A stretch of DNA of 64,000 nt from NCBI RefSeq assembly GCF_048128805.1, contig NC_136001.1, forward strand, positions 6,640,001-6,704,000. The letters run 5' to 3'. This document shows, one piece after another, positions 6,929 to 62,515 of the stretch. The notes beneath the pieces were generated by a model that was not told the origin of the DNA, did not search any database, and saw nothing but the letters and a program-made list of their open reading frames with translations. Each line of letters begins with the position of its first letter. Position 1 is the stretch's first letter. Position numbers and translations under genes: made by a program. This DNA comes from Centroberyx gerrardi (Eukaryota; Chordata; Actinopteri; Beryciformes; Berycidae).

Positions 6929-8160
6929 TGCTTACCCCCTAGATACAGCACATCATTACCAAAGTACAAACTCCAGACCAGATCCCTCCCTGATTGCTGT
7001 ACCAGACTCCTTCCACCTACACCCCCCATCCCCCCCACCCGTCATCGCCCTCATCCATTACAACAGTTCGACAGTCTCCTTGTGCTCGGTGAGTCAGCAA
7101 CTTTTTGCACGTGCAACATTAGATGCAGCGACGGCGGCTGCTCCCCTTGTGTGTGTCAGCAGCGGTGCAACAGGCCTGGAGGTCAAAATGAAAACCGTGT
7201 AAACTGAGAGAACGCGAATCGAAAGCAATGCCCATATCTGCACTGTAAAATAATGTCAGTAAAATAATAATCATGAAACGTCGTGGAGGATTCATGTTCT
7301 TGTATGCAAATGTTTAGCAGTCATTCCTGTCTAAAATCAAATTTGAGATGAGAGGTTCTCAGGGTGAGTTCTGGGTGAACTGGTGTGTGTGTGTTATTAT
7401 GCAGCTACAGCAGATACACTCACCGTGTGTTCACACTGCGAGCAACACCATCATAAGTCACCAGAAGTCCATTCATTTCCTATGGAGCTGAGCTACCAGG
7501 GAAAGTCGGCCAATATGTGGACGGTCAACAGGCTTGAGAAAATTTGGCCACATCAGCAGTTAGATCAAAATTGATTCCAGTCATTCAAAGTTTCACAGTT
7601 TTATTTGAAAGGTTACAGGAATAGAAAGCGACGTGTGGAGAACGGTTGCATCCATCGTTGGGGTCGATAGTAAACTCTTAAGTAATTTTATTGAGCATTT
7701 TCTGTTTAAGATTGATGTTACCTAGTTAGCACTTGCTAGTTACTGTACTGTTATGAAGGCAATACCAAAGCAGCAACAAATACTTGATTTGGCTGTTCAA
7801 AACTTTGTAGCTGCAGACCACTATAGGTGCATTCAGAGCCTTTGGCCCCGCCCACAATGTGTCCACCCATCAACCAAGTTGCTCACAGTGTGAACACATG
7901 GTTACAAAGTCAAAGTCTTCTGCTTTGTAGATATAAACTGTTTTAAAATATTGTAGTCTAGGTCAAACCTCTGCCCTCTGGCTGGGAGACGACCTCATTA
8001 ACCAGTAGACTATCCTGCCATCCAAGTATAATATACAATACTTTGCAATGAGTACTACTGCAATGAGTTATAATGTAACTCATGTCTTGCTGATTGGTCC
8101 AAATGCAGTAAATACATTTTCGGAGTTCTTATACAAAATACACATGTACACATGCTTGTT

Positions 8161-9912
8161 TCTTTTCATTTTATTTGTAAATGCATCTTGGGTAGAACAA
8201 AGAAAAAAATATATATAATATATTCATATGTACTGAAACGTTATGTTATGTACATATTGAGGGTTTACACTAGAAATCTTCACAACCACTGACTTTTTAA
8301 GATATGGTATCAGAATAGTCTTCTGTGTGTCTCCTGTGGATGCAGCTATGTACACTCCTGCATATTTACATACATTCATAGGATGCGATAAAACACCTGT
8401 GTTCAAACAAGCATTGAAAATTCAAAAATTGAATGAAAGGAATGATGTACAATATTGTGTACCCCTGCTTTTTTTTTTGTCGCTTGACATACATGAATTA
8501 TGCATGGACGGTATTGTCACACCCCTACATCTTCACAGCAGGGCGTGATATACATAGCAAACAATGTTCTAGCAAAAAATAGGACGTTCAAAAACGGCCT
8601 CAAAAAGGATGTTGTGACTACATTTCCCCAGAAGCTCATTCTCCTGGTTGTTCAGCACCATGGTGTGTAGTGTGTGTCCACTTGGGCCACCTCAACACTA
8701 ACATACCGCCAGTTGAGGGCCAAGGCTGGTCGGGGGTATTCCAGTAACAGATAAAGTGTAGTTGAGGCAGATTTTGTGTCAAGTCAACAGCAAAATAATA
8801 GTTAAAATAATAACAAGAGCAAACTGAGACATTCAGTTTCATGGCTATGCACTGATTGACATGGGCTGCAGTATGACACCTTTTGATTGTTAGGCTTGAA
8901 ACCATCTTACAGTCACGTAACACCCCATCAAACATGGATCACTGAAAAGCATGACTTCTGAAACCATTTGGCTCTCCAGTAAGGATTTTGTGGTACAGTA
9001 AGGCCAGAAAAGCGATAAGAATAGCAGACCAACAGGTACACAAGGCTTCTTGATAAAAAAGCTGAATAAAACAACAAAGAACACTTAACACTGATCAGAA
9101 GGCCCATTTAACAATCATGACTGTGCGCTTAACTTTTTAGTTGTGTATCAATTTTGCATTTTTTGTGTTGCTCTATTACTCCCCCCCGCCCCGCCCCCCC
9201 ACCTCCCCCTCCTTGTGTCTTAGCAGGTTTAGAAAGTTGCTCTAAAATGTTGAGAGGACTCCCAGTAGCTTATAGCGACGTTGCCTTACTTTGTTATGCT
9301 ATCAGTAGTTCATGTCCACATATTACAATGGTTCTCTACCTGTGCATCAACATCGAGTTGAACGACAAAGGTATTCTTCGACCTTTCCGTCAATGAGCTA
9401 TGGTGCAAGGCAGCAAAAACAAGGACGAAGCTTCAGGAGAAACCTCAGTCTGACTTCCTAAACATTGCATAAGATGAGGAATGTCCAAGACATTGGCAGC
9501 TTTCAGGAAGATAAAAGGCAGTTGTTCTTATCCAGGTAAAATAGAAACGCAAGGCTATTACCAAAGCAGTCTCGTAATCCAGATTGAAAGAAAATAAACT
9601 TATCTTATCTTCTGCTGAGAGAGGAGATAAAGACAGAGCAAAAAAACAAACAGAAGGAGCACAACATACAAAAGCACCAACAGCAACAACAATCTTTAGC
9701 GAAGTTGATCACGGAGAGGATGGTAACTCGTCGTTGGTTTGCCTTTGTACAATAAATTAGAACGTCACAATCACACGCTTCTGGAAAAAGCAACGCGCGC
9801 TCCCACCCACGCATTCACACCGATACAAGTATCCCAACATACACACACACACACACCCAGCTCCCGTGGCCTATGTCCGTGTGAGAGTGATCCCAGTGAT
9901 CCCAGTGGGGTT
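8161..9912 (-). other. Downstream flank of KLF15, possible long 3' UTR
   Basis: This lies directly after the KLF15 stop codon on the minus strand and contains no exon. Minus-strand AATAAA occurs near 8170. Without transcripts the true cleavage site cannot be chosen. A C-rich run at 9180-9210 and a short (CA)n at about 9838-9858 are present. Confidence 0.35.
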
Positions 9913-15640
<5,728 letters not shown>

Positions 15641-17600
15641 CCCTGGCTAGTGCCAAAAGGTTGTCTCCCGTTTGTCTTGCACGACTGTGTTTAAAGTGGT
15701 TTATTAGAGAATTATTCCTCGTGTTGCTGGGAAAGCAGGAGCAAATAAACCCAGCGAGGGGTTGGTAGCAAGGCCACGCTTCTCACTGGAGTGAGATAGT
15801 CAAACACCTGTTGTTCTCTCTCAGGATGGAAAAAGTAAGCTTGGGGAAAAAAAACCTCTTGCAATCCAAGGTCTCCAGTCAGGATACGTCTAAATAAGAA
15901 CAAACAGAGACAGTGAGAAGTCTGATAATCTCAATTCCATGTGCAACTGCACCTCAAAAAAAAAATAACAGAAAAAGATTTGAAAGGAAAGAAAGAACCT
16001 GACTCAGAACCAAAGATCACTAGGACATGAAAAGTCCTCTGATCCATCTATCAGCCCATATGAGACTCTGCCCACGTATGCAAAATCTAAATGCTGCATA
16101 TTTAAATTTCAAGTTCACACACTGTAGGCTTGCAAGTTGAATGAGGCTGTCCTTTAAGAGCAACCATATCACACTCCATTACTAGAATTTCAGTGACTCA
16201 ACAGAAAGAAAAAATAACTTCATGACATAATGAAATAGATACTATCCTACATTTCTATTTCTACAATTTGTATTTTTGTGTATTTAACTTTTTTTAATAG
16301 GATGACATAATTTGAATTGACTTTTTGTAATAGCCCTCTAGGTATGGTCCTACTCTATACTGTCTAGTTGTAGGCTATTTAGGCTCTGCTAATGTACAAT
16401 CACAGCAACCATCATATTAGTTGCCCTCACAAGATAGAGATTTTTTTCATATTTTTTCTTATATTTTGACTTATACATAGATTACATAGATGTTTTTATT
16501 TTCTCCTACATCCCCATAGGATTTTCTTACAGTGACCATTTCATACTTTATGCATAGGATTTTTTTTTCTCCTATAGTATCTCTATTGGATTTTCTTATG
16601 GTGACCATGCTGTTTTCTTTTCTTTTATTTATTTCCTATGGTGTTATTATAGGATTCTCTTATAGTGACCTTATCGTCCTTTAAAGTATTTTTTAAATCT
16701 CCTATAGTATTAGGATTTATTCATTTATTTATTTATTTTTAACTTATATACCAATTTTTTAACCTATTTTTTACCTGTAGCAACTGAAAGTTTTCCTGCG
16801 ATATTTGTATAGTGTTTCTCTAAAATTGATCATAGGATTACTACACCTATTTTTCATTATGATAATGATGGAAAAGTCATAGCCTTCAGCATAATAGTAA
16901 TAATATAAATGAACATGAAAACATGGGTCCGCTTTATTATCATTACTATACCTATAATAGACTTCATAAATAAGTTATTTTCCTGGTCATTTATTGTAAC
17001 CCCCCTTCCCCTTTCCAGGGGCCCCTGTGCTGTGTGACCGACAGTAACCCGCCCGACCAGAGCAAACTGTCAACATTATTATCAGAAAAAACCGCATGGG
17101 GCAGTCGGGAGCAGTGTGCGCTCCTCCGCTGCATAAATCACCTGCCCGCTTGTTTACAGGACACTTAAAGAGCAGTAAATCCAGGCAAATTACTGTCATT
17201 GGAGTTGGGGAGACACCCGGTTATCAGCTTATCACAGCCACTGTCGGCCGGCGCATCACTGCCGTACCATTCATCCCTACGGCGGGAGTCTTTACTATTC
17301 ATTTTCAAATGTTGATGAAAATGAATGCTTCCATACAGCTACCACGACCTGCATGTTTTGGAAATGACTGAGTTTATTCATTCTCGCCGGGGCCTTACAT
17401 TTACACTTGCAACATAACAATTAGGCTACTCTGTTTTTAATTGTACAATAATAATAATAAACTAATCATAGCAATCAACATGCTTTGCACAAACTGATTT
17501 TACAGGCAGCAGTGGATTAAAGCAAATAGGGGAACTTGTTAAATCCCGTCACATGTGCTGCTGCACAGGAGGGAATAAACTCATTTTGATTCATTTCCAC
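15641..17600. other. KLF15 5' flank/intron, AT-rich, no exon assigned
   Basis: Upstream of the KLF15 ATG the sequence is AT-rich, and no confident 5' UTR exon boundary was found. Positions 16495-16725 hold degenerate repeats of a CTCCTATAGTAT...TTATAGTGACC type, which recur at 26335-26500. Confidence 0.45.
16495..16725. repeat. Degenerate repeat with CTCCTATAGTAT and TAGTGACC motifs
   Basis: Three to four imperfect units of roughly 60-100 bp each carry 'CTCCTATRGTAT', 'GGATTYTCTTA' and 'AGTGACC'. A related block lies at 26335-26500. Confidence 0.5.
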
Positions 17601-23003: not shown

Positions 23004-24997
23004 TATGGAGATTTTTTCCTATCTTTATGCAAGAGCGTTGTCTTTCAATTTGAGAGCATGACTTATTGATTTCACGTTCAGATTTTGTAATGCTTTCCTT
23101 CAAACCTTGCCCTCGCACTCAAATATGTCCTGCTTGCACTTAGATTTGCTCTGCTTCTGCTCAAACTGTATGCTTGCACTCAGATAATGTTGCTTGCACA
23201 CAGATTTCCTGCGCTCCAGCTTCAGCCCTTCTCCTCGCACTCAGGCTGCTTCTGTGCGCTCGTGAAACGTCTGCTCTCGGATTTCTGCTCTGCTCTCGGA
23301 TTTTTTTGTGCAACAACCCTGTCAAAATTCCCCAACCAATAGAATGCCAGGTGTAGTGTTGACCAATGAAATGATCCCTGCCTCGTTGCGGGCGCGTTCG
23401 CTTTACTTCTTAGAGCGTCCTGTACGGGCGGTTACTGTTTAACCGGGTTCATCCACTCCCGCCCTCCGGGGCTTTATTAAATACGACTTTTGGAATAAAA
23501 GGACAGTTAATGTATATACCAGCACCCGTACTTTTTCTCTTACTATAATAGCTACATAAAATAGTAGCCGTGTAGCACACCGGCCTCCCGTCGGTGTGCT
23601 AGAGGAGAAAACAACGTCACCTTCATGACTCAGGAGCGGGAGTCTTGCGGATCACTGGCCAATATGGACCGCCAAAGTCAAGGACCTCAAGTAAGTTTTT
23701 TATTTTAATGGTGCTATTACTTCCTTCAAATTGAATTGGTTAAGTCATATTTGCGGCACAAGAATGCATCCATGATAATATGCTTGGCTTTCAAGTGTTG
23801 TACGTTATGGGAACATTGTTGCTAGGCAACTAACAACAAAATGGACACCGCCGTGTTTCTTTTTTTCCTGTAACAGCAAAAGTAACCAGCTAACACATTA
23901 AGACAGTAGAAAACAAAAGTAAATTCACTGAGCTACTACATTTTAAAAACGCAATTGGTGTGTTGTGTATATATCCTTCTCTTCAAATGATGTTTACCGT
24001 TGCTGTGTCAAACTCTGCTCTATCAGAAAGGTTTCACATATTGGAAATACGGTAAACACGTCCCCACTTGCAGGTATCATATTCATATCTGTAACATATC
24101 TACAATTAAATCAGTTACATTGCAGACATTAAGCACTAGCTTTCCAGTTGAACAACGAGGGGTCTGTTACTGTTAAAGCTGAGGAAATCCTTAAATTAAA
24201 TTGTGGGGACGTGTTTACGCATATTATCATGGATGCATTCTTGTGCCGCAAATATGACTTAACCAATTCAATTTGAAGGAAGTAATAGCACCATTAAAAT
24301 AAAAAACTTACTTGAGGTCCTTGACTTTGGCGGTCCATATTGGCCAGTGATCCGCAAGACTCCCGCTCCTGAGTCATGAAGGTGACGTCGTTTTCTCCTC
24401 TAGCACACCGACGGGAGGCCGGTGTGCTAGACGGCTACTATTTTATGTAGCTATTATAGTAAAAGAAAAAGTACGGGTGCTGGTATATACATTAACTGTC
24501 CTTTTATTCCAAAAGTCGTATTTAATAAAGCCCCGGAGGGCGGGAGTGGATGAACCCGGTTAAACAGTAACCGCCCGTACGGGACGCTCTAAGAAGTAAA
24601 GCGAACGCGCCCGCAACGAGGCAGGGATCATTTCATTGGTCAACACTACACCTGGCATTCTATTGGTTGGGGAATTTTGACAGGGTTGTTGCACAAAAAA
24701 TCCGAGAGCAGAGCAGAAATCCGAGAGCAGAAGTTTCACGAGCGCACAGAAGCAGCCTGAGTGCGAGGAGAAGGGCTGAAGCTGGAGCGCAGGAAATCTG
24801 TGTGCAAGCAACATTATCTGAGTGCAAGCATACAGTTTGAGCAGAAGCAGAGCAAATCTAAGTGCAAGCAGGACATATTTGAGTGCGAGGGCAAGGTTTG
24901 AAGGAAAGCATTACAAAATCTGAACGTGAAATCAATAAGTCATGCTCTCAAATTGAAAGACCACGCTCTTGCATAAAGATAGGAAAAAATCTCCATA
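23004..24997. mobile_element. Foldback (long inverted repeat) DNA transposon, 1994 bp
   Basis: The arms at 23004-23783 and 24219-24997 are inverted copies about 780 bp long. I count fewer than ten differences, including one T-run length change. The termini read TATGGAGATTTTTTCCTATC and its complement. A perfect 6-bp duplication, CTAAAC, flanks the element (22998-23003 and 24998-25003). Each arm has clustered TGCTTGCACTCAGAT-like sub-terminal repeats, CCAAT-type boxes, a GC-rich stretch and a local hairpin built on CTAGCACACCG. The spacer of about 435 bp contains a further inverted pair, GTAAACACGTCCCCAC. No transposase frame is seen. The superfamily is not assigned; the 6-bp duplication argues against hAT and P (8 bp), Tc1/mariner (TA) and Harbinger (3 bp). 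Confidence 0.88.
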
Positions 24998-41500: not shown

Positions 41501-44500
41501 AGATCTGAGAATGGTGTATGACTACCCACTTCTGCTACCATGACACATATCTTAGACAGGAGAGAGACTTACATGCTTTGGACCCATACCGTACTTTTCA
41601 GCCAAAGCCACTGGTTGCTGTTTTTAGCTGCCTCAGAAGCGACCTTTGTGGCATGCTGTAGTCCCAGACCACAAATCCCTGAGTACACTACTAGTGGATG
41701 TAGCTCCAAATCCACAACAGCCATCTTCTACAGGGTGTACCCTGACTCTCCAGCCTCACTGTTCAGCCTCAGCTGCTAACCTCCTCCTTTTATACCTCAA
41801 CTACTGCATCTTCCCATGGCACAGTGTTGGACTGTAACACTAGGTCAGGTCTTAGGCTGTTGCTGAATACAACTGTTTAGAGAACAAACAAAAAAAAAAG
41901 AGCAATAAAACAAATCATTGATCCCCCTTTACACCTGCCATTAACATGCATAAAGCATAAGCTTATCTGCATAAAAAATTGGGTGTAAATTCATCATAAT
42001 GCATTTCTGTTCCTGCAAACTGTGCAAAGTTCTATGCAAGGATCCAACGGCTTGAGATGAAACGTGGTTATTGATTGTAGTATTATAACGTACATTGACT
42101 TCACAGAGAGCTAGCAACAAGGTTAAAGAGCATTTTACATTTAGCTCTCACGTGCATAGTCTAAAAGTAAGCATGATAAAAATCCAACGCATCTGTAACA
42201 GAATTTGCTTCTCTCATTTGTAATGAGTGAACTTCCAATGGAGAGTAACACATTCAAAGCATGAAATGTGATCAAGGGGATGACAGACAATCTCACATTT
42301 CAATATCGACACTCAAGATGGATGTTAATGCCATATGTAAATGTAAACTGACAAAATCTCTCAACACATTTCAGACACAAGATTCATATTAATTCCAGGT
42401 ATAAAGGGAGCCACTGTTCACTGAACCTGTGCCTTTAGGTCAGAATTTTAGAGCTTTAGGGCTAGCCTTTTGAACTGTGTAGGCATAAGTTATAGCAGTA
42501 TTCAGACACTAATCCAATCTGAGCCTACCAGTGTGGCTTCTCATATGGATCTTGAGGCGGCAGGCCTTGTCATACATCTTGTCGCAGCCTGGATAGGTGC
42601 AGGTGAAGTGGCCCGTCTCTCTGAAGTGAGTGCGGTTGTGGGAGAAGAGAGCGCTGAAGGTGATGAAGGTCTTCTCACAGCCTGGACAGGTTATAAGGGG
42701 AACAAAAGGAAGGACAATGATGGTGGCCAATGGAAGGAAAGACCCTCACAGTATACTGTGAAAATACAAAATGAAGTCAGAGCATTTAGTGGTTTGTGCC
42801 TTAACGAACTGAGCCATCAGGAATCAAGGCAAGTTTTTTTTTTGTAAAAATCCACCCGTGCAAAGTTGCCTAGTGCAGCTTAAAGATTAACAATGGAGTT
42901 TTCCATGTAAACAACATGGATTTGTTTACCTTCATAATTTCACTCATTTAGACATAGAGTATGTTGTTAGACCTCGATGGCTATGTTGAATAAATGTATT
43001 CCCTTCAAAGACGTTTGGAAAGTCTTAGTTTTTAATGTTTACAAGGCTACAATGTTTACATCCAGATCTCAGTGCAGCGGCTTGGAGAGGAAGCTCCGCC
43101 CCTTCATTTGATTGACGACCAAAGCTGTAGGTAACCATACCAGCTACTTCACCTGTTGGCACATCAGTTACGAGAACTTCCAGCTAGACTAGCGAACAAG
43201 CTAACTTACCAGTTGACCAAGAAGAAGGCTACGTCTGCATAGGTACATATTTCTTTCTCTAACTTCATTTTTCTCCACCAATCAACAGCTTCTCCAGTAT
43301 TAATATGGTGTCTCCTTTTATCCATGAGTTTTCTCCACTCAACATTACGATCAGGGTTTTGTTTCTTTGCTCTCCCAAACTCAGTTGTGTCTTTTTCTTC
43401 TGCCGACATGGTTATTGAGTGAGCAGAGAGGAAAATAACCTGGAACGGTGTGTGGCCCCTCAGCTCTCCCTCTCCACACAATATTGTGTTCTACATCACC
43501 TCCGTACTCATGTTGCGCTCGTGCGTCCTGATGCGCGTGATTGAAAACCATGTGATAAGTGTTTTTGTTGTTGTACGGAGAGCAACTTTGCTCACTAGTG
43601 CTACTAGTGGCCGAAAAAACTCTGCTGGACATCTTTTAATGTCACAATGAAACCAAATTCTGAGAGCATCTTAATTCCTTAATCTGATGCATTTCCTGTT
43701 GAAACAGGATATTAGGACGGGACATAATGCAGGGAGGGATCGTTCAAAAGTGTAAACCAATGAGATATCAGGGAGAGAAAGGCAAGTTTATTTGTTGGGA
43801 GGGGCGGGACAGTTCAAAAATCTGTGATAGTTTTATTGGTTGGAAATTTTATGTTGCCTCCTGGTACATGATGTCACCACTAAAGATTTTCTGTTTTTCA
43901 GGAAGTAAAAGTAAGGAGATTTTGATATAAAAATACAATTAAATAAATTTTTGTCTTTTTTTGCATAAATTGTCAAATATGTGTATGGTATGATAGAATG
44001 AGCTAAAAAGCTGAAAAACTAATTTTTTATCTGAGTGACTTTAAGTAACATTTCTGGAGCTGATAAAAACAAAATAAAAAAAAAATCAAACAAGCAACTC
44101 CAGCTTGTGGTGCTACCTGGGAATTCACACTTGTAGGGCCTCTGGGGCTCGAAGTGGACCCTCTGGTGGTTGGTGAGTCGTGTTGCACTGCGAAACCTCT
44201 CGCTGCAGATGTCACACATGAAAGCGTTCTCCTGGTCGTGGACTTTGACGTGAGCCTTCAGGTTGTAGACGGTGGTGAAACGCCGACCGCAGCCTTCAAA
44301 CTGGCAGGTGTGCGGCCGCTGCTTGTCATGGGACTGGAGGTGGCGCTTCAGCTTGTAGGAGGTGGCGAAAGCCCAGCCGCAGCCCTCCACGGTGCACTGG
44401 TAGGGCCGTGGGTCCTCGGCATGGTTCAGGAGGTGAACCTTCAGCTTCTGGCGTGTGTCGAATGTGCAGGAGCAGTCCGGCTCAGGGCAGTCGAAGGAGA

Positions 44501-46100
44501 CGGCGGTCTCCTTCTTGGACCTAATTAGATGTGCAGACTGGAAGTCCTCGTTGTCACAGTCTGCCATGGTGGCTTTGGGGGACGGGGTGACCAGATCGCC
44601 CTCCGTTATGGCACACAGCACCCCTGCCTCCTGCTTGATGATGGGACAGGAGTCCAGAGAGGTGCCCAGCTCTGACAGCGAACAGTCATCCACCAGAGCC
44701 AACTCAGAGTCGCTCACAGACAAGCCAGGTCTCGGCTCCTCATGCTGGCCTGAGCTGGTCACCGCCAATGTGCTGATCTTCCCTATGGATTTAGTACCAC
44801 TATCATAGTTGAGAAGAACAATGTCCTCGTGGTCTTTCATGCCCAGGTGCTCCTTCAAGCTTACCATGTCGTCCTCTTTGTGGACATAGCCCTCTGGTGG
44901 GGCCGCGAGAGTCAATATCCCGTTTTCTATGGTCACTATGATGCTTTGGTTGTTTATCATGATAGTTCCCGAGAAGGTTTCGCTAGCAGGCGGACTTGTG
45001 GAGGCCGCGTCCGGGTTTGCGTTGTCCCGCAGCCCCGCTGGGTCGGAAATGAACTCGGAAGTGTCCATTGCTTCAACGATGCCTGCGTTTCCTGAAATCA
45101 AGGCACTACTGTCTTCATTACGGGACTGCGACGACAGCTCGCAGGGCAGCTTGCCTTCATTGTTTTCAGTGCAAATTTGGCCACAAATCTTATAGCCATA
45201 TTCGTTTGTCAAAACAACGTCTTCGACCGTCTGGTGATAATTACTTTGTTTAGCATTAACCTCGGCAGAATTCTCATTTAGTAAACCACAAACAGACTCA
45301 GCTTTTCTCAAGGCCTTGGCTTCCAGACAGCTCAAGTTGTCATTAGATTCAATGAGAATATTGTTGTTTTCAACCTCCATGGAGCCACAGGGACTAGTTT
45401 TTGAGCACTCTGGCGTTTTACCTTTTATCTTATCGCCGTCCTTGGATAATACATCCAGTCGGTCTTTGCTTGCCTCGCTGATACCATCCTCTTGAACAAT
45501 ATTGAAAACAACATATAATTCCTGGGTGCTTTTGTCTGCTCTGTTAGCCGTGTTGTCGCTGGCTAGTGAAGGCTGCTGGGAGGCGCCGTCCTCACGCTGC
45601 TGCCGTAAAACTGGAGACGGTAACGTTAGCTGCCGCTGCTGCAACTGTTCCTCTTCCCCTTCAAACAGAGGCAGCGCCATTTGCATTCCGCTGTCACCGC
45701 TCTCTACTCCGTATTTCCAGGCAGTCCTCAATAGCTCCTGCGGGGGGAATTGTACATGTAGCTCACTGTCTTTCTCTGTGTTCACGTTACGGAATCCGAC
45801 ACTCGCCCTTTCGTCCGGCAAATTGTTATGGCAGGTTGGTTGCCGTTTGCTGACAGGCGAGCAAGCCGCCCCGCTGCCATTTTCCGCCAGTAGGCGATAC
45901 GGAGATGTCCTCGGCCTGTTGTTGTTGTTGTTGTCGCTTTGTGGCTCAGTCGACTCCAAAAGTCTATCCGCTTCGTTTTCGGTCGAAATAAAGCCAGAAA
46001 TCGCCCCTGTCGTTGATCGAAGCGGAGACGAAGCTGTTCTGTGTAGGGCGCCATGTTGAGAGTGAATGTTTTGGGCATCAGAAAGCCCCTGGATTTCCAT
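35589..46100 (-). CDS. zxdc: ZXD family zinc finger C, transcriptional co-activator
   Basis: There are ten coding exons: 46100-44117, 42681-42529, 41047-40969, 40188-40058, 39524-39354, 38749-37965, 37231-37147, 37021-36849, 36543-36442 and 35675-35589. The product is 1249 residues (human about 858). Ten C2H2 fingers lie at about 535-835, with marks such as [56 protein letters not shown] and [15 protein letters not shown]. The C-terminal half has TPSSEL...[19 protein letters not shown] and the end [10 protein letters not shown], all ZXDC features. In mammals ZXDC binds CIITA and supports MHC class II transcription. The ATG at 46100 has a good context (AAGATGG); an earlier in-frame GTG (46175) is not used. 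The N-terminus before the fingers (534 residues) is much longer than in mammals and low in complexity. Confidence 0.95.
37283..37600. repeat. Dispersed repeat, copy 1 of three (ZXDC intron)
   Basis: It starts CTAGGGTTAGACCAATATGG and ends around CATATCAGAGG...GGACAAGATCCAG. Relatives are at 48065-48262 (right part only) and 60918-61262 (most of the unit). Confidence 0.6.
42850..43640 (-). mobile_element. Probable DNA-transposon remnant with one coding exon (ZXDC intron 1)
   Basis: On the minus strand an ATG at 43409 opens a 67-codon exon ([17 protein letters not shown]..., ending [12 protein letters not shown]) that stops at a donor, AACTG|GTAAGTT (43210). The segment is bounded by GTTGCCTAGTGCAGC on the left and CACTAGTGCTACTAGTGGCC on the right, blocks typical of dispersed repeats. 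The peptide has the W-R-K-x-K...A-x-V-A-x-F-L-V pattern seen in transposon-linked fish proteins. No next exon was found. It is more likely a repeat-carried fragment than a host gene. Confidence 0.35.
43640..44000. repeat. Interspersed repeat, paired with 19495-19740
   Basis: It has the same block order as the 19.5-kb copy and the same orientation, within ZXDC intron 1. Confidence 0.65.
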
Positions 46101-47214
46101 CTTGGTATCCCTGTAGCAGCGGCACAGAAAAGGCCCGCCCTGCTGTATGGATGTAGAGGAGATCCGTGGAGCCACTTCACAGTTTACTGCAAGCCGTGGC
46201 CTAATGCTGCCTTCAGCTGCTACATAAAATATCGTAATAACGGCTTTAGCGAATATGAGCGACCCAATAGAGTGGCAAATACGGCTGAGAAAAGTAGGTA
46301 TTTAGACTTAAGACCTTAAAAGGTTTGGCTTCACGTTCACTCTGTACAAGACAGAACACAATGTCAGAGCTAGGAACTTCTATGATACCCCAGTTGCAGA
46401 TGTGACATTTAAGAGGTGAAAAGCATGGAAGTCCTGTGAACGACTGAAGCTAAAAGCAAGAACCTTTGGCTGATAAATTAATTAAGACACAAATTATGCC
46501 AATTTTGTCCTCTTCATTTTGCCGCTGCAGCACGAAGTAGGTCTGTGGCATTTGATTTCTAAAAGAAAATGACAGCCACGATGTAAAGCAACTTTTGGAA
46601 GTAGTTGGAAGTACGAGTTTACGAGGAGCACTTGAATGCAGCACAATATCCTTCAGTGTAGGGAAACTGTGGAGTGGGTTTAAGTGCAATGGATCTCAGT
46701 AGGATGTTTATTTTTTTCCACTCATGAACTGTGATATTAAAATATACTTATACTAATAACGCTTTAATTTTCAATTGAAATATGAAGCCAAGTACATTCC
46801 ATTAATAATTTGAAGCCTTAAGTAATCAACATTTACCAACATAACATTGTGGCTCTTCATGACGTTACCACTGAGTGGTAGTATAGGACAGTTAAACATC
46901 AAATAGCCTGCTGAACTTTGAAATAAACTTTATATATTCTCCTCCATGATTAAACCAATATTTAATGAACAAGGGGCCCTCAGGGTTTAGCCCATGCATT
47001 TACCACTCACTCTTTGATATTAGAATTGAACCCCACTTTGTGATGTTGTTGCTCTTGGGTATTGTTATATGATCCCCCAGCCCTAAATCTGTAAGTCTGT
47101 TGCACTGCATGGACACTGAATCCATGATGAGATTAGGACACTGAAAAGCATCCACATAGTAAATCAACAGCAGTCATTTTGAGCTTATTATTTTAGTTTG
47201 AGGCAGAAGTGAAA

Positions 47215-51172: not shown

Positions 51173-54100
51173 ATGGCAGAGAATAAGATGGGGCCAAACA
51201 TCCAGGCCGGAGCTGGATTCCTCGCCAAACGGGTCCAAAAGTCCTTGAGTCGAGCTCAGGAGAAGGTGAGCAACAACTCTGGTCTGTGTGAAGTTGTATT
51301 GTGGCCCTCAAACTTGTATAAACTGTACTTCAGATACTAGAGGCATGCAAGAGTGGGGCTTGTCATCAGTTTCTGTTTAGCTTACATCCCATGAGATATA
51401 CTCCTTCATTCTTGTTTACTCAGCCTGCTTTGGAGCCCTGCTTTACCACACTTTTCTACCAATTACCTGTAGAGACACATGGTACGTTTACAGTGTGACA
51501 TATTTGAGGCAGCTTTACCAGTTGTAGCTTGTCTTAAAAGTTGTGCACCAGTGATTCCCAAACTAGGGTCATGGGACCACCAGGGGTCCATGAAAGGGTT
51601 CCAGGAAGTACGCAGAGAAAATGAGGATTAGTTTAATTTCACTGTCACTCACTATAAATGAGTACAATGAGAGAATGTATAAGAATGGCTGTTTTGCTCA
51701 TAGGTTGCACTGTACCCACTGTTACCTGTTATATAGTTCTGTACCAAGTCATATCTGACAACGAAACAGCTCTCAGATGGGGGGACAAAGTGTTAATAAA
51801 TGGAGGTCCGTGGTCTGATGTGGATCATTGAAAAGTTAAGGAACTTGATGCAGATCATAACAGAGAGGGAAAGTTTCCTAGACTGGCAGTTCAATGTACA
51901 GAACTATAAACAAGTAGTAGTAGTCTAATGAGCTCAACAGTTCAAAGCCTAGTCTATGTTGTGAATTTGCTACATAAGAGTGATTCCTCTTTTGTCTGGT
52001 AGCCTGATATGTTAGAAAAATACACGGCGGACTTTCCCTATGGGAGTACCTTAATGTGATTCAGTACTGTACAGTTGTGTGTGTGGACACAAAAGCTGCC
52101 ACTTCCTGACTCTGCACTTCCTCTCACTTGCTGAGCCTGCTCAGTCGTTTGTGGTTTACTTGTTGCATTTCACTGCTCAGACTAAAAAAAACCAGATAAG
52201 AGTGTGTGGCTGAAGTTTGCATGTACTCTCAAGTTGCTAGGCTAAACGGTATTTTGGGGACGCACTGATTTTTAATCATGGAAAGTGGGAGGAGCAGGCT
52301 TAATAGTGAGACCCATTGTTGCGGATTTGAAGTTAAAGGTCAAGCAATTTCTCGTTCAGTCTTTCAAGCGGTTGCATGCAGTGGTCCGTGAAGGATGCTG
52401 TAATAGCCAGCCATGTGTGTCTGCTGTAGGTGAGCCATAGGAAAGTATATGGTGTAATCGTTGATGCAGGCCTAGAAACCTAAAGGAATATAATGTAGGA
52501 AACAGACAGCTGCATAGGTTTGTCACTCACAGTAAATATGCCATTCTGTTCCAGGTCCTTCAGAAACTGGGGAAAACCATGGAGACCAAAGATGAACAGT
52601 TTGAGCAGTGTTCCCAGAGTCTCAACAAACAGCAGGTACACCAAGACTACTACCTGAACTTGAGAAGCCCTCTCTAGATGCTATTCTTGTGCTATGTGCC
52701 AGTGCATTCAAAGCACGTTGAAACTTTAACCGTTGCTTCCATTAGTGATATGATTTTGACCGATTCTCTCTTTTGTTATTACTCACTTCTCACCGAGAGT
52801 GAAATTTAGGTCACTCATGTCGGCGGCCATTGCTGCATTTAGAAATGCAAGTTACACAAAGTCTTTGCTTTAATCTGCTTTTGTGGCTAAAGCGCTTATT
52901 CTGGCCCACATGCCCCTTCCCAAAACTCCTCAGTAAAGCCAAGCATTGTTGAGTCTGAATAATGAGAATGTTTTCTTATTGCTGTCCTTGTGGTGGGAGG
53001 CCAAGCCACACGCTCAGATAATGTGCATGGCTTCGACAACAGGAAATATTTTACACAAGATGCTACTCTTTAATTTTCTTATCCATAGTGCATAAACAGT
53101 GTTTGCTATGTCTCCTCCACAAATCTGTAGACAGGCATCACCCTTGTGACTAAAAGACAAATGAGACAGTTCATTCTTTAATTAAGAAGCTATCCATTTT
53201 TCAGGATTATTCGCATGCGTATGAATCGACTGACTTAACCCAGTGTTTTTCTCTCTGAGGCTTCAAGTTGCTCATTCCATGTTTAATGCATCAGCAACGT
53301 ATTAGACTGACTGAAACCAATGAAGAGCAACAGGAAGGAACTCAGCCCGCTGACAAGACCGCTTTCACTTGCAGACACCACTACCATCGCCACATAAAAT
53401 GTTGTGATTCTTATTTACCCTACTTTCTCAACAATGCAATGTGGTCTGATCTCCCACTGTGTTTTGTGATCGGATATCTCGGTTCTTTGTGCATGATGCT
53501 GCTTGGAACATATTGTTATGCATCGAAATGATACTGCAAACAAAACCGATTTATAAGCAGACTGATCTCAAATGTGCATAAAGAGCATCACTTTGCAATC
53601 ATTTTGTCAAGGAAATGATGACATTTGACTAACTCAGATTACCCACAGAGATACTGTTACTTGGTTTGACTTAAGCTGGGCTCTTTATGACTGCATTTTC
53701 ATTCCTTTTCTGCACACAGACGGATGGAGGCAGGTTATTCAAAGATGTCAAGGCTTACTATGCAGCGGTGAAAGGTAGGTTCTGAAAACTGTTTTTCCTG
53801 CTATAACCTCCAGTGAAAATCTACATAGACGCTCTAGACTTAACCGAATAATGACATAACCGGTGGCTTAAAGTGGCATTAAGTAATCTATGAGCTTTTT
53901 CGGTGTCTGTTGGTGACCAGTAGGGATCATAAAAGCTCCAATGGGTGCAGAGCTTTTGTTCCAAAACAGAGTACTGGCCAGAAAGTGAGTTTTGAAAGGC
54001 CGAAATCTCAGCCGCTGGTGAAGTAATCATTGAGTCATTGGTATTGATCAGCAATGCAATCAAACCCCCACAGATGTATTATGGTAATTTTGTGCCACGA

Positions 54101-55279
54101 AACAGTAAAAGTCATACTAAATGCTCCTTTTAGCTGAGTAAAATAAACTCATGAATGCAGAAATGTCGCTTTAGTTGTGTAGCAGTGTGGCAAAGTGACT
54201 TTTTGATCCACTAGCCACCGTGTCTGGTAGATTCCTAAATTCTACCACCTGCTCACATGTTTTTTTTTTACTAGCCACGTTTTAAAATCGGTGTCACCAC
54301 TTCTTATTGGAATATCACTTTTTTTCCCTTTGGCCCAGATGTCTCCTTCTGCCCCTTGCTGCAGTGCACCACCTCTTATTATCTGTATCTGTCGGCACAT
54401 TCCGCCTCCAGTTTGATGCTCTTATCCTCTTAGCCTCAGGGCAGATGAGCTAAACTGACAGAGCAGGGGCGTTTTTTCCCTGGTAATGAGAGTTCATATC
54501 AAAAAGATTTGTTTTGAAACGACGTTGGGAGTACGGCGCCCAGGAGTGGTCATGGGGAGAAAAAAAAGGCATATCAGATGTAAACACAGGGCAGTGCATA
54601 AGCATCACTGAGGGAGATGAAACTGTGTTACCAGCCACTGCTAAAAATCACCCACATTTTGCGGGTGGCGGGTGTTAATTTCCCACCCTATTGTGCAGGC
54701 TGTAGTACTCGAAAGTACACTGACAAAGTGACTATTTGCTGATGACTTGACTTTTTGAAACCTCCCTTTTTGCCCGGGAGAGCAAGCGAATAGAGAAGTG
54801 AATTTCCTCTATTCTTAGACCTTGTGCCGCCTTTTGCAATTCTGTCTGTGTTGCCATGTTGTAAGAGAACAAAATACAAGCTTGCAATCAAAAGAGCAGA
54901 CACGGCAATGCATGTATGATTCATTTGCAAGAAACTGTTGTATTTCTAGTGCTGTCAGCTGTAACTGCTACATTGTGAGCTCCTGTCAGGAAACCAGTTG
55001 TTGTTTTGACCTTTTCAGCGTAGGTGTAGCCTTAGCGCCACAAAGCCCAAAAACAATACCCCTGTTGGGGGTCATGACTAATGCTGATCCTGGTTAAGAT
55101 TATAGAGTAGAGTTGCATGAGGATTTTTTTTCATATTTTTCCTGTTCCTTTCCACAGCAATGCATGAGTCGTCCAAGCGGCTGTCCCAGACATTGAGAGA
55201 CGTCTACGAATCGGACTGGAATGGAGTAGAAGACCTGTCTCTCATTGTAGAGGTACGGCGTAGTTGTTCTCCTACCAGA

Positions 55280-55345
<66 letters not shown>

Positions 55346-58300
55346 TGTGTGTGTGAGAACAAACACCTGAGGGCTGCTCCACAAAGCCACAGCACCTGTT
55401 AAGCCAGGCTTATTTCAGTAAGCCAGGCTTATGTTCAGGAAATGGGTATGATCTTTGAAGAATGGCCGAATAGTTCCCAGTGAATATCGAATGGTATTTT
55501 TGCTTGAAATGTCCATCCCTATTTTAAACGTCATGAACGCGGAATTATCTTGATTGTTCAAGCCAGTTCAGTTAAGCCTTGATTGTTCAAACCTGATTAC
55601 GTTGGCTTTGTGGAACCGCTTAATCCCAGATCGATTTTGTAAGGTTAACTCAGGTCAGGCTTTTCCTACGAAGCCCTGCTTTTCTTAGCCTGCTTTGTGG
55701 AACGCCCCCCCCCCCCTCCCCCCCCCCGTGCAAATAGTTTGTGATTGGGTTAAAAGTTGTCGAACAGTTTGAAAAAGATGTTGCAATTGCTTTGAAGTGA
55801 TGCCCAGCTACCAACTTTGTCTCGTAGAGTGAGGACTTGCTGTGGAATGACTATGAAGAGAAAGTGAGTGATCAGATCGTCCGCACCATGGAGAACTATA
55901 CGAGCCAGTTCCCTGAGGTCAAGGTAGCCTGAGTTGTTTTTTTACTCGATTCAGATCCAATAAAACTGTTGGCAAAATGGCTCTACTACTACTGCTTCTG
56001 CTGCACCCCCTGTCTTTCAGGAACGAGTCGCTAAACGCGGTCGCAAACTCGTGGACTACGATTCAGCGCGTCACCACTTGGAGGCGCTGCAGAGTGCCAA
56101 GAAAAAGGACGATGCCAAGATAGCCAAGGTAGTACATGTATTACAGAAGACATTGCACAAAGGTGGAGAATGTAAGGCTGAAAACATATGGTGGCTTAAG
56201 TTTTGATGTTGTTGTTGTTTTTTTCTGCTGTCAAATCCTGCTGTTCAAATGTCTGTCCAACAGGCGGAGGAAGAGTTTAACAAAGCCCAGAACGTCTTTG
56301 AGGAGATAAACAACGAGCTGAGGGAGGAGCTGCCCGTTCTCTATCAGAGGTACGGTTGACTGACAGCAGGAGCATATGAACAAGATGCTGTAAATTTAGC
56401 ATTAGCATTGATATGAGATTAGACAAAACTTTAACGCAAGCATCTTTGTGAACCGATGTACAGGTTAGAAGCCGATTAGCAAGTGTGCATTATTAGCTGT
56501 TCACGTTGGGCCTCGTGCAAGAACGTTTTCGTATTCTCATCTTCAATTTCTCGTACTTTTTTTGTGAGGTGGACTCGTATGAGTGTGCCACGTCAGATTC
56601 ACCAAACGCTTGTATCTTCAGAAAACTGTCATAAATGACCCGCGTAAACACGGCGAATGGCACCTGTTCTAAATGCGCGTTCGCGAGAATTGTGAATTTG
56701 CACAATTGATGCCCCGATAATGCCATATAAGGTTAGGCGTCCGGCCCATATGTCGGGAAGCTTCATTCATAAAAATGACACTGAAGACTAAGAAGAAGTC
56801 TACCAGCTCTGATACTGAAGTCCTACAATCAGAAATTAGCCTAAACGAAAGCATATAATATTTAATAGCGTCAATAGTGGAACCAAAGGCCCTGCTAAAG
56901 CCAAGGAATGGGAAGAAATTAGGCTACTTGTGCTGTTAATGCAGTGTTGTCTGTTGTGCGTTCCCTTACAAAAAACAACTATAGTATTCCTATGCATTTT
57001 AGACGAATACTAAATAAATATCACAACAAAGCTATAATTCCCTATATGCATGTTATATTGATACTACAGAAGACAAAAACCTCAACCTGCTGCAGCATGT
57101 GATGTTAATAGGCCTATGTATGACTCTAATGGTAAGACCTAAAACCATTTCTCTTTTTTAAAATTTAGATTCACTTGCACATACCCACATTAACATTATC
57201 AACTGGAGTAAAATAGAAATCAGATTTATCTCCCTCTATAATGTATTTTCCCCAATACAATCTAACCTTGCCTTTGTCTCGCCTGAGTGTTAAATAACCT
57301 GGCAATTATTAGTGTTTTTATGTTTTCTCTTTGTATTGAGCGCGCTTATAGGCTACTATGTAACCCGCATGGATATTTATGAGATTTTATGCAGCACCGG
57401 TAAAATAATTTACACACTACCCTCTTTTGAAAAATCCAACAGTGCTCCCTTGCTATTTTTCCTGTGACTATAACCACTGTACTGGTTAATCTCAACATGA
57501 TTATACATTACGTATACATACATACATTACGTGACAATTTATATATTCAAACTCAAAATTTCTTCAAAGTGACAGAGATACAATCCATTAGTCAACAACA
57601 AAGTTTTTTTGCTTTGGAGAACGGCAGGTTGATTGTACGTGACTCGTGAAAAGAGAAAATTCAAAACTTTTCTTATAGGATTTCATTAATGGGATTGGAT
57701 TAAATCTGAAGAATTGGGTATTTCAAAAAGCATGTAAAAAATTTTCATCGAGCATAACCATATTCAATTCCAGACACCCTTGGCTGCACACACATACACA
57801 CTCTTTGATAGGAAATTTCACATTTAGTTTCTCAGACATGTAGGATGTCACATCACTTGCCTTTTGGCAGGAAACTCTATGGACCCTATCTTACACCCGG
57901 CGCAAAGCGCAGCGCAAGTGTCATTGCTAGTTTCTGACCGACGCAGTTGTCATTTTCACGACCAGCGCCCACGTTTAAATAGCAAATGTACTTGCGCCCA
58001 TCTGCCATCACGCACGAGCAGATCCGTTTCCTCAGCAGAAAACCGTTCGTTTCTCCAACTTGCCGAATCCGCCATTTAAATAGCAACGCGCCAAGGTGCA
58101 AGCGCACCTGGCTCTTAAAGGGAATGGGAGATGACACTCTGATTGGTTGAGTTCATGTTACGCCCAAAACACACCTATGATTAATTAAGGGACTTAGTAC
58201 AACCCCTTTGCGCCTTGCACCTTACTTTGCGCCCACATTGTGCGTCGTTTAACTAGCAATTTGGATTTGGACACGCCCTAAACGCACTTGCGCCATGCGC

Positions 58301-61300
58301 TTTAGACCATGCGCCATGGATCATTTAAATAGGGCCCTATGTGTTAAAGACTGAAAACCACACCAACAGTGTTTCCAGAATTGGCCTTCATATGTTAGCT
58401 CACTCATGTCTTTCTGGCCTCACAGCACGTTGTTGCCTTATCTTAACATATGGCAAGACCAAGGTCTGTTTTAGGACCGCAAATCTGGATTGGTTTCTGT
58501 AATCTCGATCTTGCAGTATCTGGATCAGAACTATCCCGCCGGCTAATGTTTTTGAAAAACTGACTCAACGTCAGCAAGATCAGTCCGATCCTGGATTGCG
58601 AAAAAGGGGATTAGAAAATCTGTATACTATGTGCATCGTAGGCTATTCACATTATCGGATCATATTTGCAGATGGAAGTAGCATAGATGCAATTTTGTCC
58701 ATAAGTATGTAGCTGTTCAAGAATTTTTTCCAGAAATATGTATGAGCTCAAAATATTTAGGGTCACATACTGAGAACACTTAATTTAATGAAGAGGCTCA
58801 TGTGGTGTCGGCACAAAATGAACTGAAAGCTTTCTGTCTTTGTGCAGCCGAATAGGTTGCTATGTGACAGTGGTCCAGAACATATCAAACCTGAGGGACG
58901 TCTTCTATAAGGAAATGAGTGTGGTAAGATATGACAACGATCCTCTTGCTTTCTCTCACTCAGACTAGTATTGTGAGGTATATCGTGGTGCGAGAAATAC
59001 CGCGGCAATTAGCGAGACTCCAGTTTTTAATAAGACATAAGGTGCAATCATGTTCACTTTGTATTGCAGCTGAACCACGACCTGTACAATGTGATGAAGA
59101 AACTGGAGACTCAACACTCGGGGAAAGCTTTCATCATCAAGGGTCTCAATAGGTAAGGTACTGGGCTGCACATGTGTTCTGATGTGTGATCACAGCGTTT
59201 CTCACATTTTCTCACTTGGTCAAAGCGGTAGTAGCTGACTAACCTAAATACCCAAGTAAATAATGCACACACTTAATGTTTCCATTTCTGTTTTAATGTA
59301 AAGTATTAAATTTGATTAAATACTTGTAGGCTAACAAAGTATACCAGTAAGTACAGAGCTTGCAAAGGCATGAAGGAAATAATTTGAGGTTGCTATCAGA
59401 CTTATTTAACAGACTTGCTAATGGAGAATTTTCTTAACCCCTTGTTCCCTGACTTTAGCTGACTTTACCCTTAAATTTCCCCTTAAGCAGCTTCAAAATT
59501 AGAAAAAAAAAAGAATTCCTGACTGTACAACAATGTCACATCCATATTCTGTATCTGCTTGTTCCAACTCTTTCTTGAAGCTCTAGCTGCTTATATTGAA
59601 TGAAATATTAAAATACAAGACGCCATGTTTTTATGGCTGCACCATTACATCAAATGGAAAAAATCTAGATGTTTGTGCATCATTTTCTACACATTTCCCT
59701 GTAATTCAGCATGACACGTTTGCCATGTCTTTGGAAAACTTGTTATCTTGACTAGAATTTAAAATAAAGTTCTGTGGGTTTGAACAAAGCTTGGCCGTGC
59801 AACCTGCGTTTGTAATGATGGACCCAGTGGCGGGGGCGGCAGGGAGGAAGAGGTTGAACGAAGTGATGTTTTTTGTGTTGCCCTTGCCTGTCAAAAGCAA
59901 ATGTGATGGGTTGTCTCCAAAATATAGAAAGATGTGTTTGAAAGCTTCCATTGCATTTTGCTCTAATACCTGATACATGTGGCTGGCTGATGTTGGTTTG
60001 AATGAATGCAGGTCAGGATACTACCTGCCAGGGACTTCAAATGAAAACTTGACCTTTTCTTTTCTGGTAAATTTATAGTCCAACAGTAAGTACTTTCTGC
60101 TCATCTTTTTCTTGACACAGCACCAAGTCGAAGAAGAGGAAGTCCCTGGTTATCTCCAACCCCATCCCCTGCAACACGGCCTTCCCAGCCGACCATGTGT
60201 CCATCCACTCGTCCACCGAGAACGGGAAAGACGGCGGGCCCTCTTCCCCCGGCCCACCGGATCAAAGCATCTCCGAAGAAACCAGCCTGCCGGAGGAGAC
60301 CTCCGGCGGCGTCCCGTCCAAAGACGTCACCGCGTCGGATTCGGATGACCTCGGCTCCAGCGGCGCCAACACGCCCAAGAGGCAGTCAACGTGCGACAGC
60401 GACAGGAGCACAGGAAGCCAAAGCCTGGAGGAGGCTGAGCCGGAGCCGGAGCCGAAGGCGGAGGCTGAGCCGAAGGCGGAGGCTGAGCCGAAGGCGGAGG
60501 CGGAGCCGGAGCCGGAGCCGGAGGCAGAGCCGGAGGCAGAGCTGGAGCTCGGCATGAACCGGTCGGACGACTCAAAGTCGGAGGTCGCGAGTCAGGAAGT
60601 GTCCGGTCCCTCCGATTCTGCAGACAGCGACGCCCCGCAGAGTCCGGAGCAGGAGAACGCGAGTGATCCACCGTCGCAGGAGGCGAAGACCAAACCCCCG
60701 CCTGTCCCGGCCCCTCGCCTCTCCTTCCGCTCAGAGAGACCCTCCCCACCCCCTGCTGAGGCTGACGAGGAGCAAGAGAAGGAAGAGGCAACATCTCAGG
60801 ACCAGGAGACGAATGGGTCAGGAAATGACTCTGATTCCCAGAATCCACCGGGCTTCCTTTACAAGGTAAAATAGTACATGAGTATCCCCAACAGGTCAAA
60901 TAAAATCAATTGATATTAGGGTTAGACCAATATGGGTTTTTGAAACCTGATAAGAATCTGATTTTGTGTGCCAGTATACAGTATCTTTAAATTTGACAAT
61001 TTTTCTGCCAAAATATTCCAAGTATTCAGTGTTATTCTTGGGAGGGTGGAAAAGCCTCTGAAATAGAATTTTAAAACACAGGGTACTTAAACTCTCCAAT
61101 GGATAATAATCTGATCAAAATGTTCAGTTTGAATTAATTCAGGTTAAGGGCTTCCCACAGCCAACCAGTTTAGTTTTGATCAATAATATAATTAATATGT
61201 AATCAATCAAACTGCATCATATCCATCGTATCAGGAGGACGACACTGATATCTGATTTGCAAATTGCTTCATGCAGTTTCACCTTTCTTTATTTACTAGT

Positions 61301-62146
61301 CAGTTGAATGAAATGGGACTTGCATGCAGAGTTGCAGGAGTAAGCACTACATTTCAATTGCTCATCAAAGGACCCTCATGTTAAAATGACCCTCATGTAT
61401 TTTGTATTTATTAAACATTCTAGGGGGGAAAAAAATTGCCACTTCTCATCACCTCGGTTCTTTGCATGTTTGCCTTTCTGTTTTCAGACCAGTTGTTCAG
61501 ACCAAGACAGTTGCGTAACTTTAGATTAATCGGCGATGAAGTTAAAACTCCCATCCCTAGTACTGGGTGATGTTGATGTGAGCTGTGTTTTACACCAGGG
61601 GGTGGCGCTAGAGAGTCACGCAGCATCGGAAGACGGCCTGCTGGAGTTCGAACAGGGGGACGTCATCCTCGTGCTCACAGACGCTCAGGAGGTTTGTGTG
61701 CTTTTACTTGTAAAGTATATTTCACTTTCCATATCACTGCAGAGTGACAGTAGAAAGGTCATAGTTAGGATCTTGGAAGATGACACATTTAATGTCATTG
61801 CCCTTTTATTGCACCTTGGCATGTTTTTTGTTCATGCTGAACAAGGTTGAAGGAAAGTGGGTTCATCAAAAACGTAAATCACAACCCTTGATCACAAAAT
61901 AACTCCTGGAACACATTGAACATCATAAATTGATGATTTTTTCTGATCTAATTGATGATATTTTCCTTTAAGATCTTACATGTGAGTGACTTTGCGACTT
62001 GTGGTTTTTTTTTTTTTTTTTTTATCTCACAGCAGGAGGGCTTGGTGAAGGGGATCAGGGAGGAGAGCTGGAACCAGCACAGGGATCTAGAAAATCACTC
62101 TGGGATCTTCATGGAAAAACTCATCCAGCCTGTTCAGGCGGAATGA
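51173..62146 (+). CDS. bin2: Bridging integrator 2 (N-BAR protein) with a degenerate SH3
   Basis: There are twelve phase-consistent exons: 51173-51265, 52555-52635, 53720-53774, 55158-55252, 55828-55923, 56021-56128, 56264-56349, 58848-58923, 59070-59152, 60121-60865, 61599-61691 and 62033-62146. The product is 574 residues. Residues 1-258 are an N-BAR domain that bends membranes: an amphipathic start ([16 protein letters not shown]), [49 protein letters not shown] and [20 protein letters not shown]. The last motif and the MHESSKR segment point to BIN2 rather than BIN1 or amphiphysin. A basic KSKKRKS stretch, an acidic EPKAEAEP repeat (about 362-400) and KPPPVPAPR (449-457, a PxxxPR SH3-ligand motif) follow. 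Residues 502-574 match the amphiphysin-family SH3 but lack its key residues. Mammalian BIN2 has no SH3. Confidence 0.94.
51549..51850. mobile_element. Degenerate hAT-like element in BIN2 intron 1
   Basis: The left end CAGTGATTCCCAAACTAGGG and the right end AAAAGTTAAGGAACTTGATG look like decayed inverted ends of the same kind as 19938-20267, with GGGTC/GGTCC blocks inside. No target duplication remains. Confidence 0.45.
54170..54680. repeat. Probable transposon remnant in BIN2 intron 3
   Basis: It carries CTAGCCACCGTGTCTGGTAG near one end and a GCGGGTGGCGGGTG block near the other. Similar paired blocks mark teleost DNA-transposon copies. The boundaries are uncertain. Confidence 0.3.
55282..55355. 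repeat. (GT)n microsatellite next to the BIN2 exon 4 donor
   Basis: About 74 bp of nearly pure GT starts 30 bp after the exon 4 splice donor. Confidence 0.95.
55371..55707. mobile_element. Probable MITE with TCCACAAAGC inverted ends
   Basis: The left end GGGCTGCTCCACAAAGCC is inverted at the right end, GCCTGCTTTGTGGAACGCCC. AAGCCAGGCTTA-type blocks lie inside. A C-rich run directly follows the right end and hides any target duplication. Confidence 0.55.
56490..56960. mobile_element. Transposon remnant with Myb/SANT-like peptide relic (BIN2 intron 7)
   Basis: A sequence beginning GGGCCTCGTGCAAGAACG is followed by AAGACTAAGAAGAAGTC and then a frame reading [17 protein letters not shown], with stop codons between the pieces. 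The last peptide resembles the start of the Myb/SANT-like accessory protein of PIF/Harbinger elements. It is broken and cannot be functional. The assignment is tentative. Confidence 0.3.
57881..58337. mobile_element. PIF/Harbinger-type MITE in BIN2 intron 7
   Basis: The ends GGACCCTATCTTACACCCGG and ATCATTTAAATAGGGCCC are inverted. They are flanked by the 3-bp direct repeat TAT (57878-57880 and 58338-58340), as expected for the 3-bp duplications of PIF/Harbinger. Sub-terminal GCGCAAGTG/GCGCCATGCGC blocks are typical of a widespread teleost family. The size is 457 bp, with no coding frame. Confidence 0.7.
60431..60545 (+). repeat. Coding minisatellite in BIN2 exon 10
   Basis: Imperfect units of GAGCCGGAGCCG and GAGCCGAAGGCGGAGGCT encode alternating EPEP and EPKAEA peptides (about residues 362-400). 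The frame is kept throughout. Confidence 0.85.
60918..61262. repeat. Dispersed repeat, copy 3 of three (BIN2 intron 10)
   Basis: It starts TTAGGGTTAGACCAATATGG, exactly as at 37285, and its right half matches 48065-48262. It is the most complete of the three copies. Confidence 0.6.
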
Positions 62147-62509: not shown

Positions 62510-62515
62510 AATAAA
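62510..62515 (+). promoter_or_regulatory. BIN2 poly(A) signal
   Basis: AATAAA lies 364 bp after the BIN2 stop codon and is followed by a GT-rich stretch, as expected of a cleavage site. Confidence 0.7.

Follow-up and report, generated by a model that had tools for sequence, protein, structure and literature searches.

We propose that the twelve-exon gene described here is a fish BIN2 with a blunted C-terminal SH3 domain, that is, one whose ligand-binding face has been lost, and of this identification there is very little doubt. The gene (Table 1) lies in the window, by which we mean the whole stretch of DNA that was analysed (64,000 nucleotides, C5:6640001-6704000), in a genome of 779 Mb searched as 278 contigs, and the evidence comes from the genomic sequence of this one species. 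Its gene content and the pattern of its paralogues point to a teleost. The explanation that we prefer overall, and consider reasonably likely, is that of a blunted SH3 domain with a foldable-looking core accompanied by a tail that engages partners. It is built on what can be read from the DNA: the homology of the segment, its frame, the column of its intron, the change of all eight mapped ligand positions and the retention of the core.

Table 1. Features of the two BIN2 copies (positions are those of the window unless a contig is given).
Feature	Position	Strand	Basis
BIN2 gene, 12 exons, 574 residues	51173-62146	+	GT-AG splice ends, open frame
BIN2 exon 1: start codon, N-terminal segment	51173..51265	+	Gene model
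BIN2 exons 2-9: BAR domain	52555..59152	+	Splice sites, frame, Pfam BAR
BIN2 exons 2-5	52555-52635, 53720-53774, 55158-55252, 55828-55923	+	
BIN2 exons 6-9	56021-56128, 56264-56349, 58848-58923, 59070-59152	+	
BIN2 exon 10: acidic Pro/Glu-rich linker, PVPAPR motif, ends GFLYK	60121..60865	+	
PVPAPR, residues 452-457, sole PxxxPR in protein	60701..60718	+	Motif scan
AATAAA in intron 10 behind in-frame read-through stop (GFLYKVK*)	60899..60904	+	Possible SH3-less end
BIN2 exon 11: degenerate SH3 first half, RT loop, ALESH replacing xxHDY	61599..61691	+	
BIN2 exon 12: degenerate SH3 second half, Leu541 for Trp, FMEKL for FPENF, stop	62033..62146	+	
AATAAA after stop codon, likely main polyadenylation signal	62510..62515	+	
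Second BIN2 copy	C14:20.035-20.038 Mb, within C14:20028001-20048000		BAR match

The BAR domain, which matches the Pfam BAR model at 1e-34, identifies the gene. Among solved structures it matches human BIN2 best (4avm, E 4.1e-106, 356.8 bits), ahead of BIN1 (2fic, 298.7 bits) and AMPH (4atm, 282.1 bits), with a second BIN2 entry, 4i1q, scoring between 4avm and the BIN1 and AMPH entries. The domain is 70% identical to that of human BIN2, and a comparison of four BAR sequences gave 17 sites shared by the fish protein with BIN2, 1 with BIN1 and 2 with AMPH. The gene is thus nearest to human BIN2, as the initial annotation had it, and the bit scores together with the shared-site counts rule out BIN1 or AMPH; separate loci that are BIN1-like (on C10 and C21) and AMPH-like (on C13), labels given by best match, exist in the same genome. 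Human BIN2 also resembles the window BIN2 in having a proline-bearing tail able to present motifs to the SH3 domains of other proteins, but it is reported (PMC3527510) to have no C-terminal SH3, whereas the window BIN2 has an SH3 homologue. Because the no-SH3 feature of BIN2 rests on mammals, the orthology was kept on the BAR evidence.

On sequence comparison, the segment encoded by exons 11 and 12 is homologous to the BIN1 SH3 domain, beyond chance. A phmmer search with it returned the SH3 domains of BIN1 (5i22, E 1.6e-12) and amphiphysin-2 (1bb9, E 1.9e-12), and among the 15 matches listed four were BIN1/amphiphysin-2, the other 11 having E values of at least 0.017. The 68 residues align to the BIN1 SH3 with 26/70 identities and with a gap of three residues in the n-Src loop, so the alignment is not the gap-free one first described. 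Otherwise the initial annotation proved correct on re-reading in its coordinates, its frame, its exon numbering and the residues it cites, with an open frame that runs into exons 11 and 12 between GT-AG ends. ALESH occupies residues 509-513, Leu541 is encoded by TTG at 62042-62044, FMEKL occupies residues 563-567 and the KPPPV stretch starts at residue 449; ALESH was rightly read, although the box it replaces is in this family xxHDY/F rather than ALYDY. The intron within the SH3 falls in the same alignment column in the window BIN2, in both BIN1-like genes and in the AMPH-like gene, and as in BIN1 and amphiphysin-2 the domain stands after a GF[LMV][FY]K stretch. A WNQHxxLE segment is common to human BIN1 and the window BIN2.

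Whether such a segment is counted as an SH3 domain depends on what is asked of it. Homology to a solved SH3 (5i22) places it in the family; the ligand-binding aromatic, proline and acidic RT residues, of which 0/8 are present, do not, and neither do the curated Pfam cut-offs, under which a 76-residue query scored 21.1 bits (cut-off 30) with SH3_9, 19.0 (21.8) with SH3_2 and 13.6 (22.9) with SH3_1. Since all three matching models fall under the cut-off, Pfam annotation would miss the domain, and domain catalogues can miss remnants of this kind. An NCBIfam search with the SH3 segment gave no match, and in a search of viral contigs eight stretches matched the SH3 and none was confirmed. A search of the fish genome with the human BIN1 SH3 yielded 18 matches (E up to 10): six from the exon pairs on C10, C21 and C13, one from window exon 12 (E 0.015), and 11 that were weaker. 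The window SH3 used as the query against its own genome found only itself (two matches), a search that is insensitive because it missed BIN1 too.

The domain differs from the SH3 domains of BIN1 and amphiphysin-2 in its missing n-Src residues and, above all, in its ligand face, for which eight positions were mapped through what we take to be the Src SH3 numbering. None of the eight is identical to human BIN1, against 26/62 of the other aligned positions (one-sided Fisher p 0.019), and if conservative changes are counted the figures become 2/8 and 43/62 (p 0.021), the two being the BLOSUM62-positive changes of Y to H and V to I; these values are guides, since the lists of ligand and core positions are our own, chosen with the alignment in view, and the tests are small and one-sided. 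The BIN1-like genes of the same genome keep 8/8 (C10) and 8/8 (C21) of the ligand positions and the AMPH-like gene 6/8. Likewise, among 29 columns invariant in four intact SH3 domains (human BIN1, C10, C21 and C13), the window BIN2 keeps 0/6 ligand columns and 13/23 others (p 0.017, with the same reservation). The loss of the ligand face that was originally claimed is hence borne out. A sequencing error at Trp541 was considered and rejected, as it leaves the changes at the other seven of the eight positions unexplained.

The core tells a different story from the face, with all 13 listed core positions hydrophobic or Gly in the window BIN2 SH3. In 4000 simulated runs BIN1 was mutated, free of selection and of indels, until it reached the same identity (21/63): the full core of 13/13 was kept in 26 runs and was kept with no stop in 3, 334 runs had no stop and 165 had lost 8/8 ligand positions. 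The kept core is the unusual part, and the lost face is only mildly unusual under no selection, yet unlike the intact relatives; the absence of stops, as seen in 334 unselected runs, is weak evidence. Core retention is an indirect sign of an SH3 beta-barrel fold, and from these comparisons it appears, on balance, that the SH3 fold has been kept under selection and is not a mere relic. SH3 folds that do not bind PxxP exist, for example in the calcium-channel beta subunits. These resemble the window SH3 as an SH3-derived fold without the usual ligand face and differ in belonging to other families, whereas here family members in the same genome keep the face.

The alternative is a relic in slow decay that has lost its partner, is under relaxed constraint and stands at the stage before deletion, as in the second fish copy and in mammals; we regard this as possible, though rather unlikely. 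In the SH3 tree the window copy has the longest tip, at 1.28 substitutions per site, which fits relaxed constraint, and decay is in keeping with the weak donor of exon 11 and with the SH3-less human BIN2 reported in PMC3527510. The model distances from human BIN1 are 1.51 for the window SH3 and 0.85 for the fish AMPH SH3, compared with BAR distances of 0.64 for the window BIN2 and 0.44 for human AMPH; this excess in the SH3 is modest and the comparison is rough, with few sites, mixed taxa and an SH3 tree that misplaces AMPH beside one BIN1. What such decay accounts for poorly is the intact core without a stop, reached in only 3 of the 4000 unselected runs, the 13/23 retained non-ligand invariant columns and a homology that is still detected at E 1.6e-12.

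Tests of human BIN1 give an indication of what the altered face would do. As described in PMC11245310, the Y531S and D537V variants showed undetectable DNM2 peptide binding and poor DNM2 recruitment in cells, and they reshuffle, rather than abolish, the ligand profile of human BIN1; F584S, which alters a residue described as buried in the core, no longer binds the peptide and still recruits DNM2 in cells; and V583I matches wild type in its binding. W562 and F588 of BIN1 touch prolines of Tau (PMC6246682). The corresponding residues in the window BIN2 are H513 for Y531, G519 for D537, F563 for F584 (kept), I562 for V583, L541 for W562 and L567 for F588. By analogy, dynamin-type binding by the window SH3 is highly improbable, and the blunted domain would not be expected to recruit dynamin or other PxxP partners of the BIN1 type. 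For human BIN2, the lack of a C-terminal SH3 is itself given as the reason for its having no interaction with dynamin (PMC3527510).

In the mechanism that we propose, the BAR domain would bend membrane, as described for human BIN2, the tail would offer the SH3 domains of other proteins a PxxxPR motif like those recognised by CIN85 and beta-PIX, and the blunted SH3 would remain at the C-terminus as a retained fold, either inert or put to a new use. A scan of the window protein found neither PxRPx[RH] nor a basic-residue PxxP of class I or class II, and the only Arg-bearing SH3 motif among those scanned is PVPAPR; a PDB search with the PVPAPR region gave no match. Motifs of the PxxxPR type are bound by the SH3 domains of CIN85, and with a peptide of Cbl-b the beta-PIX SH3 forms a comparable complex (PMC3805583). 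Because the tail has a single PxxxPR motif and such PxxxPR-binding SH3 domains exist, it most likely recruits partners of the CIN85/beta-PIX type. The human BIN2 tail is shown to bind the SH3 of alpha-PIX and endophilin (PMC3527510). The picture is complicated by RIN3, whose proline-rich domain is cited as a binding partner of human BIN2 (PMC11361979, citing others); as human BIN2 is said to lack an SH3, a BIN2 may bind proline-rich partners by a different means. Exon 10 also contains a tandem repeat (60437-60548) of 6-nt and 18-nt units that encode an EP and KAEAEP run.

An intramolecular role for the SH3 was also weighed. The self-binding to KPPPVPAPR suggested at the outset was rejected as unlikely, with 0/8 of the face left and a motif that is PxxxPR and not a class I or II PxxP. 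Autoinhibition could take another form, in which the acidic, blunted SH3 touches the basic STKSKKRKS patch, where exons 9 and 10 meet, or the surface of the BAR domain, replacing a self-contact like that of BIN1. The charges suit such a contact, at -11 net over the 68 residues of the SH3 (BIN1 SH3, -9) and +5 over residues 255-275, and the BIN1 SH3 is described as contacting its own CLAP region intramolecularly (PMC6246682). That contact is one of an intact SH3, however, and a variant with KPPPVPAPR as the ligand has neither the face nor a matching motif. We consider autoinhibition improbable.

A blunted SH3 that is part of the protein also presupposes that exons 11 and 12 are used. That they are normally unused, so that the main product ends in intron 10 without an SH3, seems to us quite improbable, somewhat more so than autoinhibition. 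An AATAAA lies about 33 nt into intron 10, behind the in-frame stop, but it is weak evidence because, when the letters of the intron were shuffled 20000 times, 5.0% of the shuffles had one within the first 60 nt. The donors of exons 10 and 11 reach 6.1 and 4.5, where donor scores in the gene run up to 11.4, that of exon 11 (GAG/gtttgt) tying as second weakest of 11, whereas the acceptor of exon 12 is the best of 11 (the scores are from a weight matrix). Retention of the core is unexpected in an exon pair that is never used, and the GC3 of the pair, 0.735, stands against an intron GC of 0.33-0.36. The weak exon 11 donor and the intron 10 AATAAA do leave some room for SH3-less transcripts. Intron 10 also holds a dispersed repeat (window about 61032-61266), with 40 other matches on many contigs scored from 3451 first-look candidates.

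The second BIN2 copy of the genome, on C14, bears on the history of the domain. Its BAR exons are compact (7106-8999 of the C14 stretch, L034), its BAR is 63% identical to that of the window copy, and the two group with an ultrafast bootstrap of 97 (five sequences), the C14 branch being the longer (0.43 vs. 0.13). In 30 kb free of N around it, no SH3 was found by tblastn (E up to 1, at least 24 bits) or with family profiles. As a control, a four-SH3 profile gave window exon 12 12.5 bits and exon 11 2.6 bits, and up to 0.8 bits was reached in 20 shuffles of the C14 stretch, where the profile includes the window SH3; because the control exon scores low, an SH3 more degraded than that of the window could escape detection in C14. 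In the C14 copy the last residues of exon 10 are GFPHK, and the following plausible exon gives DVPAGNQAPLDSKSTVV, then a stop, so that the predicted join would add a short unrelated tail. The C14 copy thus differs from the window BIN2 in that no SH3 is detected and in that it would end shortly after GFPHK.

This ending without a detected SH3 is what decay before deletion would lead to, and of the initial proposal of an intermediate stage of loss or a kept fold, the loss stage gains support from the C14 copy and from the reported absence of an SH3 in human BIN2 (PMC3527510), while the part that invoked KPPPVPAPR falls away. With a blunted copy beside one that has no detectable SH3 in a single fish, an order can be read in which loss of the binding face can precede loss of the fold, and the fish BIN2 SH3 may be a domain that is being lost or turned to another use. 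We infer that an SH3 was present in the BIN2 of early bony vertebrates and that mammals and the second fish copy each lost it on their own. A more specific scenario, which we put forward tentatively, is that this ancestral SH3 was complete, that selection on one fish copy did away with the polyproline face alone and retained the fold as a new interaction module of a non-PxxP kind, and that the domain was discarded independently in the second fish copy and in mammals.

A broken partial duplicate of the window BIN2 lies elsewhere on C5, at about 30.39 Mb (C5:30384001-30394000; L037 7804-9337), matching exon 6 (100 nt, 96%) and a portion of exon 8 (59 nt, 92%); of seven exons tried, exons 5, 7, 9, 11 and 12 were not found in 30 kb. 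Upstream of BIN2 in the window, a minus-strand open frame that we take to be KLF15-like (14384-15646) ends in a partial C2H2 finger, and a PDB search with part of it gave no match. Its best other copy, at C14:25.32 Mb, is 56% identical and lies 5.3 Mb from the C14 BIN2, and the next, at C5:31.3 Mb, is 44% identical. The KLF15-like and BIN2 copies on C5 and C14 fit a duplicated chromosome pair only loosely.

We found no account of an SH3 in fish BIN2 in the open-licence PMC literature, which does not show its absence from print: it is unmentioned in the available portions of PMC3527510, PMC9527923, PMC4824007, PMC13404086, PMC3805583, PMC11245310, PMC6246682, PMC11361979, PMC12921775 and PMC13224677. 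Fish BIN2 goes in print under the names bin2a and bin2b. Bridging integrator 2b appears in a barramundi proteome table (PMC12921775), bin2 is among the maternal-effect candidates in a perch study (PMC13224677) and bin2 is cited as a cichlid sex-determination candidate (PMC11361979), with no mention of its domains in these portions.

A search of bacterial and archaeal contigs with the BAR domain gave 63 stretches that matched a pattern and one that was confirmed, a weak match in a Balneola bin (L001 10001-10189, 37% over residues 145-212) that is probably a chance coiled-coil likeness. Rfam and tRNA scans of the window found nothing. The window also contains a 760-residue open frame on the minus strand (44022-46301) with C2H2 zinc fingers near its end, and a near-perfect inverted repeat (23004-24997), reported as two pieces, whose arms (23004-23783 and 24219-24997) are 99% complementary and 435 nt apart.
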